DNA from: an uncultured Syntrophobacterales bacterium
GTDB taxonomy: Bacteria > Desulfobacterota > Syntrophia > Syntrophales > UBA5619
Length of the DNA stretch: 42,652 nt
Direction: 5' to 3'
Assembly: GCA_903928915.1 (NCBI GenBank)
Contig: CAIYSL010000116.1
Coordinates: 1-42,652, forward strand
This document shows, in pieces, positions 27,613-40,642 of the stretch. A model generated the notes under the pieces. The model made no database searches and was not told where the DNA came from. It was given only the letters and a program-made list of their open reading frames with translations. A program made the translations under genes and the position numbers. Positions within the stretch are counted from its first letter, which is position 1, and every line of letters begins with the position of its first letter.

Positions 27613-27683
27613 CGGACGATCGCGGTTCCCGGCGGCCGGGATTCGGAATGCAGGACTGCACAACGACACAGAGGAGGAAGCAG

Positions 27684-28874
27684 ATGGCACTCGCACTCAA
27701 GGGAAGCGTCTCCTGGGTCGGAAAGATCGACTGGGAGCTCAGGAAATTCCACGGCGATGAGTATTCGACCCACCGCGGCTCCACCTACAACTCCTACCTG
27801 ATCGAGGAAGAGAAGGTGGCCCTGATCGACACGGTCTGGGCCCCCTTCGCCAGGGGGTACGTGGCCGACCTGGCGAAACGGATCGACCTGGCCAAGATCG
27901 ACTACGTAATCGCCAACCACGCGGAGATCGACCACAGCGGCGCCCTCCCGGAGCTGATGGAACGTATCCCCGACAAACCGGTCTACTGCACGGCCAACGG
28001 CGTCAAGTCGCTGAAGGGCCACTACCACAAGGACTGGAACTTTCGGCCGGTCAAGACCGGCGACCGGCTGAGCCTGGGGACCAAGGAGCTGATCTTCGTC
28101 GAGGCGCCGATGCTCCACTGGCCGGACAGCATGTTCAGCTACCTCACCGGGGACAACATCCTGTTCAGCAACGACGCCTTCGGCCAGCACTACGCCTCGG
28201 AGCTGATGTTCAACGACCTCGTCGACCAGGCGGAACTGATGGCGGAGTGCATCAAATACTACGCCAACATCCTCAACCCCTTCAGCGAGCTGGTCACGAA
28301 GAAGATCCAGGAGGTCCTCGCCTTCAACCTTCCCGTCGACATGATCTGCACCAGCCACGGGGTGATCTGGCGCACGAACACCGTCCAGATCGTCCAGCAG
28401 TACCTGAAGTGGGCGGACGCCTACCAGGAGGATCAAATCACCCTCGTGTACGACACCATGTGGAACGGGACGCGGGTCATGGCCGAGAAGATCGCCGCCG
28501 GCATCCACGAGGCCGACCCGCAGGTGACCCTGAAGCTGTACAACCTGGCAAAATCGGACCGGAACGATGTGATCACCGAGATATTCCGTTCCCGGGCCGT
28601 CGTAATCGGCTCGCCGACGATCAACCGCACTGTCCTCACCTCGATCGCGGGGCTCCTGGAGGAGATGAAGGGGCTGAAGTTCCGGAAGAAGAAGGCGGCC
28701 GCCTTCGGCTCCTACGGCTGGAGCGGGGAATCGGTCAAGGTGATCGCCGGCCAGCTCGGCGCGGCGGGGTTCACGGTGGTGGACGACGGCATCCGCAGCC
28801 TCTGGAACCCCGACAGCCAGGCGGTCGATGCCTGCGTCGCCTACGGGAAAAAGCTGGCGGGGCTGTTGAAATAA
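27684..28874 (+). CDS. Flavodiiron protein (A-type flavoprotein, FprA-like)
   Basis: A 396-residue protein with a beta-lactamase-like di-iron domain followed by a flavodoxin domain. Iron ligands are visible: H79-x-E81-x-D83-H84 (NHAEIDHSG), His145 (LHWPDS), Asp164 (SNDAFGQH) and His225 (TSHGVIW). The FMN domain begins near residue 255 (VYDTMWNGTRVMAEKI) and has a GSPTINRT loop. Such enzymes reduce O2 to water or NO to N2O in anaerobes, with electrons from rubredoxin or F420-type donors. There is no rubredoxin or flavin-reductase fusion, so the donor is separate. ATG 27684 has a strong GAGGAGGAAG ribosome site. norCB, a second and unrelated NO reductase, lies 1.3 kb downstream on the same strand. 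Confidence 0.95.
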   Translation: MALALKGSVSWVGKIDWELRKFHGDEYSTHRGSTYNSYLIEEEKVALIDTVWAPFARGYVADLAKRIDLAKIDYVIANHAEIDHSGALPELMERIPDKPVYCTANGVKSLKGHYHKDWNFRPVKTGDRLSLGTKELIFVEAPMLHWPDSMFSYLTGDNILFSNDAFGQHYASELMFNDLVDQAELMAECIKYYANILNPFSELVTKKIQEVLAFNLPVDMICTSHGVIWRTNTVQIVQQYLKWADAYQEDQITLVYDTMWNGTRVMAEKIAAGIHEADPQVTLKLYNLAKSDRNDVITEIFRSRAVVIGSPTINRTVLTSIAGLLEEMKGLKFRKKKAAAFGSYGWSGESVKVIAGQLGAAGFTVVDDGIRSLWNPDSQAVDACVAYGKKLAGLLK

Positions 28875-29998: not shown

Positions 29999-30169
29999 CG
30001 CATCACGTCCTTCTCCCGGGGAACTGTTTCCCGGATATCCCCGGCGCAGGGTGACAGCACAGCTCCGGGAAGAGCGGCGGTGGCGCGGCGGTCTGCCGGT
30101 TCCCGGCCGGCAGGGGATCAACCGGACGTCCCAACCCTTACCGTGTTCCACAGAAAGGAGGAAAACGGC

Positions 30170-30886
30170 ATGACCGGTAAAACGGCAAAGGCCATTTTCT
30201 GGGTGGGAACGCTGTCTTCGCTCATCATTTTTCTCTGGCTTACCTACGATTTCCACCAGCAGGAACCGAAGTACGCGAAGACCGACAAGATCAGCGCCCA
30301 GGTCGTGGCCGGCAAGAAGGTATGGCACAAGTACAACTGCAACGACTGCCACACCATCCTCGGGTTCGGCGCCTACTACGCACCGGACATGACCAAGGCC
30401 TACTTCCGGCTGGGGGAAAACAACATCGTCTCCATCGTGATGAACCCGGAGAAGGTGTACAAGAACTCCTTCCGCAAGATGCCCAACCTGGGGGTGACCA
30501 AAGAGGAGGCAGCGAATCTGGTCCAGTTCCTCAAATGGGTGGGCACCATCGAGAACCGCAAGTGGCCGCCCCAGGATGAAAAATTCGTCAAGGCCTACAA
30601 GCTGCGTGAGACAAGCGCGCATACGCTCAACAAAGCGGACATCGTGATGGGGGCCTGCGGCGGCTGCCACAGCCTGGAGAACCTCGGCCGCAGCATCGCC
30701 AGTGATTTCAACGACATCGCGAAAACTACCTCCTTCGACCGCGCCACCCTCGTGAAGTTCACCCTCAACCCGCAGTCCGTCCGGCCCGATTCCGGCATGC
30801 CCAACCAGAACGTCTCCCCCGCTACGGCGGAGCTGATCGCCGATTTCATCTTGAGCCTGAAAATCGGGAAGGAGGTGCAGAAATGA
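30170..30886 (+). CDS. norC: Nitric oxide reductase subunit C, diheme form
   Basis: A 238-residue membrane-anchored cytochrome. One N-terminal helix (about 8-25) anchors it, then comes a NorC-type cytochrome c domain with haem motif CNDCH (Cys57-His61), NorC-like TILGFGAYYAPDM and a possible axial Met104 (RKMPNLG). A second c-type domain follows with CGGCH (Cys163-His167) and possible Met210 (SGMPNQ). Usual NorC is about 150 residues with a single haem c, so this subunit carries an extra C-terminal cytochrome domain. It delivers electrons to NorB for reducing 2 NO to N2O in the periplasm-facing membrane. ATG 30170 follows an AAGGAGG ribosome site, and its stop overlaps the norB start by 4 bases. 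Confidence 0.9.
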   Translation: MTGKTAKAIFWVGTLSSLIIFLWLTYDFHQQEPKYAKTDKISAQVVAGKKVWHKYNCNDCHTILGFGAYYAPDMTKAYFRLGENNIVSIVMNPEKVYKNSFRKMPNLGVTKEEAANLVQFLKWVGTIENRKWPPQDEKFVKAYKLRETSAHTLNKADIVMGACGGCHSLENLGRSIASDFNDIAKTTSFDRATLVKFTLNPQSVRPDSGMPNQNVSPATAELIADFILSLKIGKEVQK

Positions 30887-32208
30887 TCGCCTACGAAAGC
30901 CAACGAGTCGCGCGCTGGTATCTCGAACTATCCTTGATTCTCTTCTGCCTCCAGGTGACGGTGGGTCTGTGGCTGGCGGTGAACTACGCCTTCACCCTGC
31001 CGCAGGGGCTTGTCGACGTCTTGTCCTTCGCCACGAGCCGGGCAATACACACCAACACCCTGGTGGCCTGGCTGCTGCTGGGGTTCATGGGGGGCTCCTA
31101 CTTCATCCTGCCCCTGGAGTGCAAGCGGGAGCTCTACAGCGTCAAGATCGCTTACGCGCAGCTGGTAATCTTCGCCGGCACCGCAGTCACCGCGGTTGTC
31201 GGGTTCCTGTTCGGCTGGACCCAGGGCAAGCCGCTTCTGGAAATCCCGGTCCCGCTCGACATGCTGATCGTGGTCGCGGCGCTGATGTTTGTGTTCAATG
31301 TGGCCATGACCATCTTCAAGGCCAAGGAGCGGTCGCTCATCCAGTGGATGCTCCTGTCTGGGGTGACCTTCCTGTCGGTCCTGTACCTCTTCGGCATCCC
31401 CTTCTTCTCGAACCTGAACGCCGACTACTACTACTGGTGGTGGGTGATCCACCTCTGGGTGGAGGGGGCCTGGGAGCTGATCACGGCGGCCATCATCGCC
31501 TTCATCATCCTGGAGGTGACGGGGGTCGAGCGCAAGGTCGTGGAGAAGTGGCTGTACGTGGAGACGGGGCTCTTCCTGTTCACCGGGATCGTCGGAACGG
31601 GCCACCACTACTACTGGATCGGAGCACCGGACTACTGGCTCTGGTGGGGCGGGATCTTCAGCGCCCTGGAGCCGGTGCCGATCGCCTTGATGGTCCTGGA
31701 CACGTGGATGCACGTCAAGGAGCGGAAGAACCCGATCGTCAATCCGCTCCTGTGGACCTACATCATCGGGCTGGCCCTGTTCCACTTCCTCGGGGCCGGG
31801 GTGTTCGGGTTCATCCACACCCTGCCGCAGATCAACTACTACACCCACGGCAGCCAGATCACCGTCTCCCACGGGCATCTGGCCTTTTTCGGGGCCTATG
31901 CGCTTCTGAACCTGGTGGTGTTCTACTTCGCCTTCCCGAAGCTTAAGGGCATCGAGAAGTTCGACGAGAAGCTGGGCGTCTGGGGCTTCTGGACGATGGT
32001 GATCTCGATGGTGTTCATGGGGCTGATCTTCGGCGTGGCCGGGGTGCTCCAGACCTACCTGGAGCGGATCCTCGACATCGGCTACAGCACGGCCCACATG
32101 TCGATGATGTTCTGGTTCAAGGCGGTCCTGTTCTTCGGGGTGATCTTCCTGGCCGGCGTCGTCACCACGGCCTACCACCTCTTCAGCCTGAAAAAGGCAG
32201 AGGCGTGA
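30883..32208 (+). CDS. norB: Nitric oxide reductase subunit B
   Basis: A 441-residue membrane protein with about 12 helices, of the cNOR type in the haem-copper oxidase superfamily. Motifs that bind the active-site metals are visible: HLWVEGAWEL (His190 and Glu194 of the FeB site), GHHYYWIG (His241 and His242, also FeB) and SHGHLAFFGAY (His330 for haem b3, His332 for haem b), with His56 in the first-helix region as the other haem b ligand. The FeB Glu distinguishes it from oxidases. It lacks the quinol-oxidising N-terminal extension of qNOR, consistent with a NorC partner. Translation is coupled to norC by an ATGA overlap. A strong hairpin follows the stop. Confidence 0.95.
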   Translation: MIAYESQRVARWYLELSLILFCLQVTVGLWLAVNYAFTLPQGLVDVLSFATSRAIHTNTLVAWLLLGFMGGSYFILPLECKRELYSVKIAYAQLVIFAGTAVTAVVGFLFGWTQGKPLLEIPVPLDMLIVVAALMFVFNVAMTIFKAKERSLIQWMLLSGVTFLSVLYLFGIPFFSNLNADYYYWWWVIHLWVEGAWELITAAIIAFIILEVTGVERKVVEKWLYVETGLFLFTGIVGTGHHYYWIGAPDYWLWWGGIFSALEPVPIALMVLDTWMHVKERKNPIVNPLLWTYIIGLALFHFLGAGVFGFIHTLPQINYYTHGSQITVSHGHLAFFGAYALLNLVVFYFAFPKLKGIEKFDEKLGVWGFWTMVISMVFMGLIFGVAGVLQTYLERILDIGYSTAHMSMMFWFKAVLFFGVIFLAGVVTTAYHLFSLKKAEA

Positions 32209-36727: not shown

Positions 36728-37870
36728 TCATCCCGCTTCCGGGCCGATTCCCTCCGCGCTGATGCCGTGGACAAAGTACTGCGTGTCGGTCAGGAAGTTC
36801 AGGAAGATGATGACGAACGAGACAGCCACCTCGATCATCAGGGGCTTGTTCTGGTACAGGGCCGCCAGCTGCCTGTTGCGTTCGGCGCGGCTGGGCTTGT
36901 TGAACACGGACATGAACAGCCCGTCCAAACGGCGCCCGGTCCGGGGAAGCGTCACCGCTTCGAATCCGCCCGATTCGGCATACTCCATCGTCTCCTTGAG
37001 AATTGCCCGCAATGTGGAAACAGACCGCTCGTGGTAGCCGAAGATATGCAGTGTGATCCGCTGGGCCTCGCGCATGCTGGCATCGGCCAGAATCCGGAAC
37101 AGCCCCTGGCTGATTGGGTCCGTTGCCGCGGCCTTTCGCTGGCGGATGAGCGACATCAGCACGATGTTCTTGAACAGCTGGTACAGCCGCTGGGCGCCGT
37201 TCAGGATCAGGGTGGTCTGGTGCGTCCGCTCGGGCCGGTACCCCCGGTAGATATGGGTGAACATGGTCTGAAACACGATCTCGAAGAAATCGACGCCCTT
37301 CAGGGGGTCCTGGAGGTCGATGCGCATGTCGAAGGTGTTATCCAGCCGGTCCGCCAGTTTCGTCCGCACCACTTCCGGGGTGTTCTTCGCCCGATCCAGC
37401 AGATGGCCGATGTAGTGGTTGTAGGTCTCGGCGGGTTCTTTGGTCAGCCATTCCAGACGCTCCAGCAGCCGCTTCCGCCGGATCTCCGATATCTTCGCCA
37501 TGCAGGCCTGGAACATCTGCTCCTGCTCTTTCCAACCGGAGTCTTTCAGCGGATCGAAATCCTCGAAATGGTCGTGCAGCAGGCAGGTCAAGAGGTCCAG
37601 CAGGTCCAGCTCCCTGGCTGCGTGGGAGAGCAGCGCCGTGGCCCTGAGCGGATGCAGGACGGAGAACGGCCCGAGGTCTCTTTTCTTTTTTCCGTAGATC
37701 TTCCCCAGATAATCGCACACACAAAGCAGTATGCCTTCGTCGCGGGACGCGATCGGTTTTCCCTCCAACAGGATGTACGTTATGTTATTCCAGTTCGGCT
37801 GCCGGGCACTCAACTGGTAGTTGAGCAGCGCAGAGATCTTCAGGAACCCGTCCAGGTCATAGCATTCCAT
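36728..37870 (-). CDS. HD-domain protein resembling (p)ppGpp hydrolases, with C-terminal membrane helix
   Basis: A 380-residue protein. The first 200 residues carry the motif set of the SpoT/MESH1 hydrolase domain: HPLRATALL (His73), LLHDHFEDF (His99, Asp100, Glu103, Asp104) and KLADRLDNTFDMR (Lys171 to Asn178; the usual motif is ADRLHN). There is no synthetase domain (no RelA-type nucleotide motif) and no ACT or TGS domain. Residues about 205-345 are helical and unknown; a hydrophobic stretch near the C-terminus (VAVSFVIIFLNFL) looks like a membrane anchor. It may be a membrane-bound alarmone or nucleotide hydrolase, but the substrate is unknown. The ATG has an AAGGGGAG ribosome site. recQ lies upstream on the same strand. 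Confidence 0.7.
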   Translation of the reverse strand: MECYDLDGFLKISALLNYQLSARQPNWNNITYILLEGKPIASRDEGILLCVCDYLGKIYGKKKRDLGPFSVLHPLRATALLSHAARELDLLDLLTCLLHDHFEDFDPLKDSGWKEQEQMFQACMAKISEIRRKRLLERLEWLTKEPAETYNHYIGHLLDRAKNTPEVVRTKLADRLDNTFDMRIDLQDPLKGVDFFEIVFQTMFTHIYRGYRPERTHQTTLILNGAQRLYQLFKNIVLMSLIRQRKAAATDPISQGLFRILADASMREAQRITLHIFGYHERSVSTLRAILKETMEYAESGGFEAVTLPRTGRRLDGLFMSVFNKPSRAERNRQLAALYQNKPLMIEVAVSFVIIFLNFLTDTQYFVHGISAEGIGPEAG

Positions 37871-38117
37871 GGCGCTCCCCTTCTTTCCCCGACCGGCAGC
37901 CGGCTTGCCCGTGAACAGGTCGTTTCAGTTTTCTGCCGTGCGAGAAGTAATCTGCGGTAACCCAATTGCCTACGACACTATACCCCGTTTTCCACGCGCA
38001 GTAACGCCGTGCGCCTTGAGCATTTCCCTGAACAGCGAAACCGGATGAACCGAATAGCCGATGGGGAAAACTTCCGTTATGAGGTCCCCCTCCCCTCAAT
38101 CCCCTCCCGCCGGCGGA

Positions 38118-39976: not shown

Positions 39977-40237
39977 TTAAATCCTCCGTGCAATTTCTTT
40001 GAAACTCTCAACCGCGGCGTCAAGGTTCTCGACGATGTCGCTGGCCAGTTCATCGGGATCGGGCAGGTTGTCCAAGTCGGCCAGGCTCTTGTCCTTGAGC
40101 CAGAGGAAGGCTATTTGCGCGACCTCATCATCGGAGAGGCCCGCCTGTCGTTCTGGCACATAAACGACGTCGTGACCGGACGCCCGAAGGCTGGTCACGA
40201 TGCCCGCGTCGCAGCACTCATTGGCAAGGAATCTCAC
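39977..40237 (-). pseudogene. Chimeric remnant: DUF5615 toxin-like N-terminus joined to HsdM-like C-terminus
   Basis: An 86-codon frame starting with GTG (40237; AGGTGA ribosome site). Residues 1-43 (VRFLANECCDAGIVTSLRAS, then GHDVVYVPERQAGLSDDEVA) match the start of DUF5615 PIN-like toxins, which are about 115 residues long and continue with an LLTxDKDFG-type active site. That part is missing. Residues 44-86 (FLWLKDKSLADLDNLPDPDE and DIVENLDAAVESFKEIA) instead look like the C-terminal tail of type I restriction methylases (HsdM, typically F-W-L-[KR]-D-x-S-L). The switch lies near 40105-40120. I infer an in-frame deletion that fused two genes. The toxin half should be inactive; whether the peptide is expressed is unknown. 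Confidence 0.65.
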
Positions 40238-40248
40238 GCATTCACCTG

Positions 40249-40473
40249 TTATCTGAAAGCGATCTGTCCGACGGCCAGGTAGTCGGCGGCAAAGGCCTGG
40301 GCGGCATAGATATCCTCCGGGGTCAGGTGGGAATGGTCCTTGATGATCTCCTCGACGGCCATCCCGCCTGACAGCTTCCGGAGAATCTGCTCCACGGTAA
40401 TGCCCGTGTTTCTGATGACCGGTTTCCCGAACATGACCTGGGGCTTCATTTCGATCCTTTCGTAGGTTTTCAT
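40249..40473 (-). CDS. DUF433 family antitoxin-like protein
   Basis: A 74-residue protein with the DUF433 core: MFGKPVIRNTGITVEQILRK, then LSGGMAVEEIIKD and LTPEDIYAAQAFAADYL. It is a small helical, HTH-like protein found upstream of DUF5615 PIN-like toxins in proposed type II toxin-antitoxin pairs. ATG 40473 follows an AAGGAGGGAG ribosome site; the frame is open 27 bases further. It lies 11 bases upstream of the truncated toxin, the usual antitoxin-first order. With its partner broken, it may be a surviving antitoxin. Confidence 0.85.
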   Translation of the reverse strand: MKTYERIEMKPQVMFGKPVIRNTGITVEQILRKLSGGMAVEEIIKDHSHLTPEDIYAAQAFAADYLAVGQIAFR

Positions 40474-40642
40474 AGCTCCCTCCTTGGTGCCTGGAGACAC
40501 ACTTCAACGAGTAAATGACCACCAACCTTGTCGGTGGCTTGTAGAAGACGACAACTCCTGACAATGTCATTCGCTGTCGTCATTCCATAACCTGAGCTGC
40601 TCTTCTCGTATTTGCCGGCCCAAGGCTCTGATGCTGTCGGAC

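Follow-up and report, generated by a model that had tools for sequence, protein, structure and literature searches.

The window analyzed here, the whole stretch of 42,652 nucleotides, carries on its reverse strand the coding sequence of an RSH-hydrolase-like HD protein of 380 amino acids with a conserved C-terminal extension (36728–37870, (-)). The frame opens with ATG, and a ribosome-binding-like sequence, GGGGAGC, stands immediately 5' of it (37871–37890, (-), both read from the sequence). It is a real gene, defined by the open reading frame and by a set of 47 distinct family sequences, near-copies included, two of which (L024 and L087) are partial. The 45 full-length members have a constant size of 377–408 aa, with ends set by script. 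The HD gene stands as an orphan within the window, flanked by recQ upstream and by a solute-binding protein gene downstream (gaps of 274 and 126 bases). Between recQ and the HD gene lies a frame which by eye resembles the start of DUF488 and is interrupted by stops (37980–38110, (-)); this suspected decayed frame gave no Pfam match.

Members of the family were found in Desulfobacterota, the phylum covered by the family profile search, where scores above 400 bits were obtained in 6 of 395 genomes; the profile also picks Rel-sized frames in many genomes. The distribution is patchy. Nine of 100 relatives possess the gene, the window's own genome counted, and the tenth match among them (G056) is weak, HD-only and located in a 785-aa frame; in the class of G202, 31 of 241 genomes are positive. 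A contig scan of named genomes with the single protein as query, which picks up close relatives only, produced 14 family loci with 43–76% identity to the window protein, labeled Deltaproteobacteria, Desulfobacterales, Desulfobacteraceae, Syntrophus and Olavius-associated delta symbiont. A search of plasmids and phages for the family gave no match. A 32% identical member was seen on a 188-kb IMG/VR contig (L088, 3001–4095). The literature search, judged from its results, returned no publication naming such a family.

Comparison with the 76%-identical relative L002 gave dN 0.145 and dS 1.36 (ratio ~0.11, with dS close to saturation), and for the C-terminal 100 residues dN 0.155 and dS 1.21. Since the ratio is low and the C-terminal part behaves likewise, the whole protein, both the HD and C-terminal portions, is under purifying selection.

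The earlier note on this DNA described a (p)ppGpp-hydrolase-like protein without a synthetase domain, in which HPLRA, HDHFED and ADRLDN follow each other as in SpoT and MESH1. The three motifs are indeed present in this order (residues 73–77, 99–104 and 173–178), and because key residues in them are invariant across relatives the pattern is not due to chance. The missing synthetase domain was confirmed, only HD-type Pfam families being matched at a credible level. The window protein alone matches only HD in Pfam (E 0.0017, under the curated cut-off) and TIGR00691 spoT_relA at 6.4e-4, far under the whole-protein cut-off. At the level of the family, Pfam HD matches 19 of 20 members and HD_4 10 of 20, and TIGR00691 matches all 20 (E up to 1, best 4.6e-7). 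Searched against the PDB, the family profile reaches the SpoT N-terminal domain (9.3e-6), human MESH1 (7.9e-4) and Rel (0.0016), so the comparison with RSH and MESH1 models proposed in the note came out in its favor.

The predicted full-length structure (pLDDT 86.6, pTM 0.90) leads to the same enzymes. Alignment of 981 chains with VIA-align 2 placed SAHs or MESH1 in the top nine rows (Z 13.2 to 11.1), where Z below ~13 may reflect a common helical arrangement. The best of them, the T. denticola SAH, superposes over 170 residues with Z 13.2, and the part of the model superposing on small alarmone hydrolases spans residues 38–276 (37043–37759, (-)). Foldseek found no match at E ≤ 0.001, the best being SpoT at 8.5e-3 with probability 1.00, and none among viral structures at the same threshold. 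Because of the caution on Z and the weak Foldseek result, the fold is taken as support and not as proof. Profile, predicted fold and residues together make the family-level link to RSH hydrolases firm.

The active-site residues were identified by mapping the numbering of A. baumannii SpoT onto the family by alignment. According to the excerpt of PMC9974481, the base is stacked in SpoT by R45, without which hydrolysis is lost, substitutions of Y51, E82, D83 and N147 are inactive, and the H54A/H78A variant is unable to bind Mn. In RelSeq, Mn is bound by H53, H77 and D144, and R44 and N148 lie at the base, according to the excerpt of PMC13299517. The metal ligands (SpoT H54, H78, D79 and D143) correspond to H73, H99 and D100, found in 45/45 readable family rows, and to D174, found in 47/47. 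The segment HDHFED (residues 99–104; 37559–37576, (-)) comprises the metal HD pair and the ED pair (SpoT E82, D83), represented by E103 and D104 in all 45 readable rows. P74 and R76 are invariant in the same 45 rows and D177 in all 47. The base-stacking arginine (SpoT R45, RelSeq R44) is R64, present in 45/45 and situated nine residues ahead of H73, as in SpoT. In the segment KLADRLDNTFD (residues 171–181; 37328–37360, (-)), which includes the metal ligand D174, the holders of the 3'-pyrophosphate are retained: K171 (SpoT K140) in 47/47, R175 (R144) in 46/47 and N178 (N147) in 47/47. The position of SpoT T150 is occupied by D181 in all 47 members, and by eye no counterpart of the basic K158 and R161 was recognized in the family.

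The main oddity of the family, missed by the earlier note, is the absence of the loop tyrosine. The base loop R-x-L-G-P-x-(A/S)-V-L-H occupies residues 64–73 (37652–37681, (-)), R64 corresponding to SpoT R45 and H73 to SpoT H54. In the window protein, the place of the RSH loop tyrosine (SpoT Y51) is by alignment that of S70 (37661–37663, (-)). Three residues before the first histidine, the 45 readable family rows have alanine (36) or serine (9). Among the 58 Rel rows that could be read (some genomes counted twice), the same position has tyrosine in 56, alanine in one and leucine in one; the 59th row was unparsed and has tyrosine by eye. Four kinds of stand-alone hydrolase have tyrosine throughout (12/12, 2/2, 2/2 and 2/2, that is 18/18), as do the solved SAHs and Mesh1s with a readable loop. 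The spacing from arginine to histidine is ungapped relative to Rel, to the (p)ppApp-hydrolase-like rows and to viral SAHs. In the model, residues 61–70 are the least confident part (pLDDT 52). The likeness to (p)ppGpp hydrolases suggested in the note is upheld by profile homology and by the fold ranking; (p)ppGpp hydrolysis itself is uncertain, because a tyrosine whose substitution inactivates SpoT, according to the excerpt of PMC9974481, is absent family-wide.

The aspartate in ADRLDN, in place of the histidine of ADRLHN, was regarded in the note as a change that might alter the substrate. This suggestion is weak, and the motif was rejected as a special mark: Drosophila Mesh1 has aspartate at the same place (KLADKLDN), and hydrolyzes (p)ppGpp and (p)ppApp according to the excerpt of PMC7644958. 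The residue before the asparagine is histidine in 55 of 58 Rel rows (some genomes again counted twice), and by eye D, H, S or C in short hydrolases. Two viral SAHs (L090, L091) also have ADRLDN, and since they were found via the pattern KLADRLDN they were not counted. The aspartate of Drosophila Mesh1 and the variability among short hydrolases indicate that ADRLDN marks an SAH-like protein and not a new substrate.

The C-terminal extension beyond the SAH-like part covers residues 281–380 (36731–37030, (-)) and lacks a PDB match and any convincing Pfam match. For a profile built from residues ~205–380, no PDB entry came up even with E as high as 10, and no Pfam family reached a convincing level. 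In 297 genomes this profile had five matches only, each fused to the HD domain in a family-sized frame; as far as the sample shows, the C-terminal region is an integral part of the family and not a mobile domain. Residues 284–380 modeled alone without an alignment gave a poor result (pLDDT 64, pTM 0.44). The pLDDT of the last two blocks dropped from 95 and 85 in the full model to 37 and 34 in this run, which is a hint only, as the alignment depths differ.

The membrane helix proposed in the note corresponds to a hydrophobic helix at residues 342–361 (36788–36847, (-)), recognized by hydropathy, column composition and the model. The helix exists, but a role as a membrane segment or anchor lacks support on balance. 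The 19-residue Kyte–Doolittle maximum is at least 1.6, the limit applied, in 36 of 47 members and lower in 11. At the same time, E or Q occupies position 347 in 41/47 and a polar residue or glycine position 358 in 47/47, while K342, F356 and F359 are invariant; judged from sequence, such a pattern would be unusual for a plain anchor. The tail that follows (residues 365–375; 36746–36778, (-)) contains G369 and G374, both conserved in 47/47, and forms bridges in the model. According to DSSP, the only bridge-forming residues are 305, 368, 370–371 and 374–375. Residue 305 can bridge only with 368–375, and the tail therefore sits, in the model, against the globular part, next to the loop of residue 305. 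Helix 342–361 is thus more likely to be buried in the globule than to serve as a membrane anchor, as conservation and the predicted topology suggest.

In a tree of 45 HD sequences, which contained no reference sequences of the seven SAH subgroups described by Atkinson et al., the family forms one clade (support 100/99) on a stem of 1.86 changes per site. Rel and the short (p)ppApp-hydrolase-like set form clades of their own, as do three other short types. With a stem of this length the substrate is not readable from homology. Profile–profile scores were highest for the (p)ppApp-hydrolase-like set (94.3), followed by Rel (81.5), viral SAHs (77.2) and Mesh1-like proteins (60.0), the depth of the compared profiles being unequal and some genomes standing twice in the Rel rows. 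The short (~140 aa) (p)ppApp-hydrolase-like SAHs were detected in 14 of 297 Desulfobacterota genomes at E ≤ 1e-14 (L153–L164 among them). Twelve of the 14 were used in the profile, tree and tyrosine comparisons, L165 (partial) and L166 (a Rel-sized frame) being left out. One member of this set matches PDB 7smg, a (p)ppApp hydrolase, at 2.1e-36.

The (p)ppApp hydrolases of the Aph1/PDB 7smg kind have HPLR, LT..E.Y..YI and KLAD..DN in common with the family and provide the closest profile of those compared. However, enzymes of this kind are ~140 aa long and possess their own base loop, D-K-x-G-x-x-Y (12/12 rows), whereas the family, with its 380-aa window protein, has R-x-x-G-P-x-A/S with R64 in 45/45. 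HPLR and LT..E.Y..YI are common with the (p)ppApp set, but the arginine loop of (p)ppGpp hydrolases is kept, and the base preference is therefore not readable from sequence. The SAHs (MESH1, C. glutamicum RelH, T. denticola SAH, P. aeruginosa SAH) have the same HD fold over residues 38–276, the metal ligands, the ED pair and no synthetase domain, and Drosophila Mesh1 shares the aspartate at the ADRLxN position. The family differs from them by the lost loop tyrosine, its length (380 aa against 149–232 aa in the solved chains), the C-terminal extension and its own clade. As both the tyrosine and the single-domain features fail, the protein is not an ordinary SAH, although it is most like an RSH hydrolase. 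The hydrolase domain of long RSH enzymes (Rel, SpoT) has equivalents of R45, H54, HD, ED, K140, R144 and N147 which are kept in the family; the family differs in lacking the synthetase domain and the loop tyrosine, in H to D at the ADRLHN place and in T150 to D181. The HD domain of RelA is an inactive pseudo-HD domain with a changed active site. It resembles the family as an RSH HD domain with an altered active site, but in the family the metal and ED residues remain strictly conserved.

The earlier note called for a check of a separate Rel, and one was found: the genome has a single HD_4 match and a single RelA_SpoT match, which fall together in one 741-aa frame, a Rel. The genome contains no other synthetase. 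A toxin–antitoxin or defense role was rejected on this ground together with the absence of a PADLOC match.

Neighborhoods were compared at 33 of 35 loci, L187 and L189 being dropped because the ORF picker missed the gene there. No gene is common to most of the 33 loci, and the neighbors name no substrate. The neighbors include a Lon-like AAA protein at 8 of the loci, and an HDOD protein and an uncharacterized 399-aa protein at 6 each; in these counts some genomes stand twice, under two names. In L011 (the same as L172 and G202), the HD gene stands between a LuxR-type response regulator before it and a PAS histidine kinase after it (gaps of 71 and 12 bases), and in L185 (G554) the HD gene is likewise followed by a kinase of that cluster. 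In several Desulfobacterales (L006, 1771–4065; L009, 2512–4791; and relatives) the Lon-like AAA protein (Lon_C, LonB LID) is located beside a 390–400-aa protein without a Pfam match and an HDOD protein. Both kinds of neighborhood fit a regulatory role.

The preferred reading, with a probability a little short of even, is that the protein is a nucleotide 3'-pyrophosphohydrolase which derives from RSH enzymes, depends on Mn and has had its active-site loop rebuilt, as its residues suggest. Such an enzyme would be a cytosolic HD hydrolase from the lineage of RSH hydrolases, acting on a purine nucleotide by removing pyrophosphate (or phosphate) from its 3' side. The most likely substrate would be a (p)ppGpp- or (p)ppApp-type alarmone, and the enzyme could act as an extra hydrolase alongside the bifunctional Rel of the genome. 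The loop tyrosine, which in SpoT helps to order the water network, would be replaced in this function by a family-specific residue, perhaps supplied by the added N- or C-terminal helices. Residues 281–380 might form a fixed cap or a regulatory element packed against the HD domain, and helix 342–361 would be buried rather than cross a membrane. The rebuilt hydrolase is favored by the conserved metal site, ED pair, R64 and K171/R175/N178, by profile homology to RSH proteins (reciprocal, as the family profile also picks Rel-sized frames, and closest to the (p)ppApp-hydrolase-like short SAHs, then Rel), by the ranking of SAH and MESH1 folds with a confident model, and by purifying selection on both parts of the protein next to a separate Rel and no other synthetase. 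It is weakened by the effect of the tyrosine substitution in A. baumannii SpoT (excerpt of PMC9974481), given alanine or serine here in 45/45, and by the long stem (1.86), the exchange of T150 for D181, the K158 and R161 counterparts not recognized by eye and neighbors that give no substrate.

The loss of the tyrosine could also mark a change of substrate. It is possible but rather unlikely that the protein is an HD hydrolase which arose in the RSH lineage and then turned to a different nucleotide, such as another nucleotide or cofactor phosphorylated at the 2' or 3' position; the loss of tyrosine and the new loop R-x-LGP-M/L-A-VLHPxRA would then be the signs of the move. The loop was rebuilt in 45/45 while the metal site stayed invariant, the clade is separate with its long stem, and SAHs are able to take NADPH besides alarmones, as the excerpt of PMC9765508 describes for XccSAH. 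However, the base-stacking arginine and the whole K/R/N set at the 3'-pyrophosphate have been retained, and this would be surprising were the 3'-pyrophosphate no longer the target. Retention of every ligand-holding residue beside the loss of a tyrosine needed for SpoT hydrolysis would also suit an alarmone-binding sensor, non-hydrolyzing or very slow, whose HD pocket binds Mn and (p)ppGpp and passes a signal to the C-terminal part or to a partner. The conserved fused C-terminal region and the position of the L011 gene between a LuxR-type regulator and a PAS kinase agree with such a sensor, but it seems improbable: the ED pair and the metal ligands, which matter more to catalysis than to binding, do not vary at all, and no universal partner gene accompanies the 33 loci. 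The membrane-anchored version of the note, read as a (p)ppGpp hydrolase that a C-terminal transmembrane helix would fix to the inner membrane, is very improbable. The helix is hydrophobic enough in 36/47 members, but 11/47 fail the limit, polar residues and glycine recur at positions 347 and 358, K342, F356, F359, G369 and G374 are invariant, and the modeled tail lies on the same globule, 305 bridging 368–375.

The family may tentatively be seen as a separate RSH-like HD branch, observed so far only in Desulfobacterota, which lost the tyrosine, gained a C-terminal region and is no longer an ordinary alarmone hydrolase; it would be an alarmone receptor or cleave a nucleotide handled by no known RSH enzyme, a proposal to which we give somewhat less than an even chance. 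If the family hydrolyzes alarmones without the tyrosine, there would be a second way to build the active site of an RSH hydrolase; otherwise the family would be a hydrolase turned into a dedicated receptor for alarmones or into an enzyme acting on an unrecognized nucleotide. In both cases, sulfate reducers and syntrophs have one more conserved gene in their alarmone biology.

Two other regions of the window could be mentioned. A small DUF433 protein (40249–40500) and a DUF5615 match lie in overlapping frames at 39977–40570 (-) and look like a toxin–antitoxin pair. At 30080–32208 (+), a cytochrome c protein is followed by a COX1-type subunit (Pfam), for which the name NorC/NorB nitric oxide reductase is proposed. 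A flavoprotein of the ODP/flavodoxin type (27648–28874) is encoded near this NorC/NorB-like pair, and the region could serve nitric oxide handling in a Syntrophales-like anaerobe.
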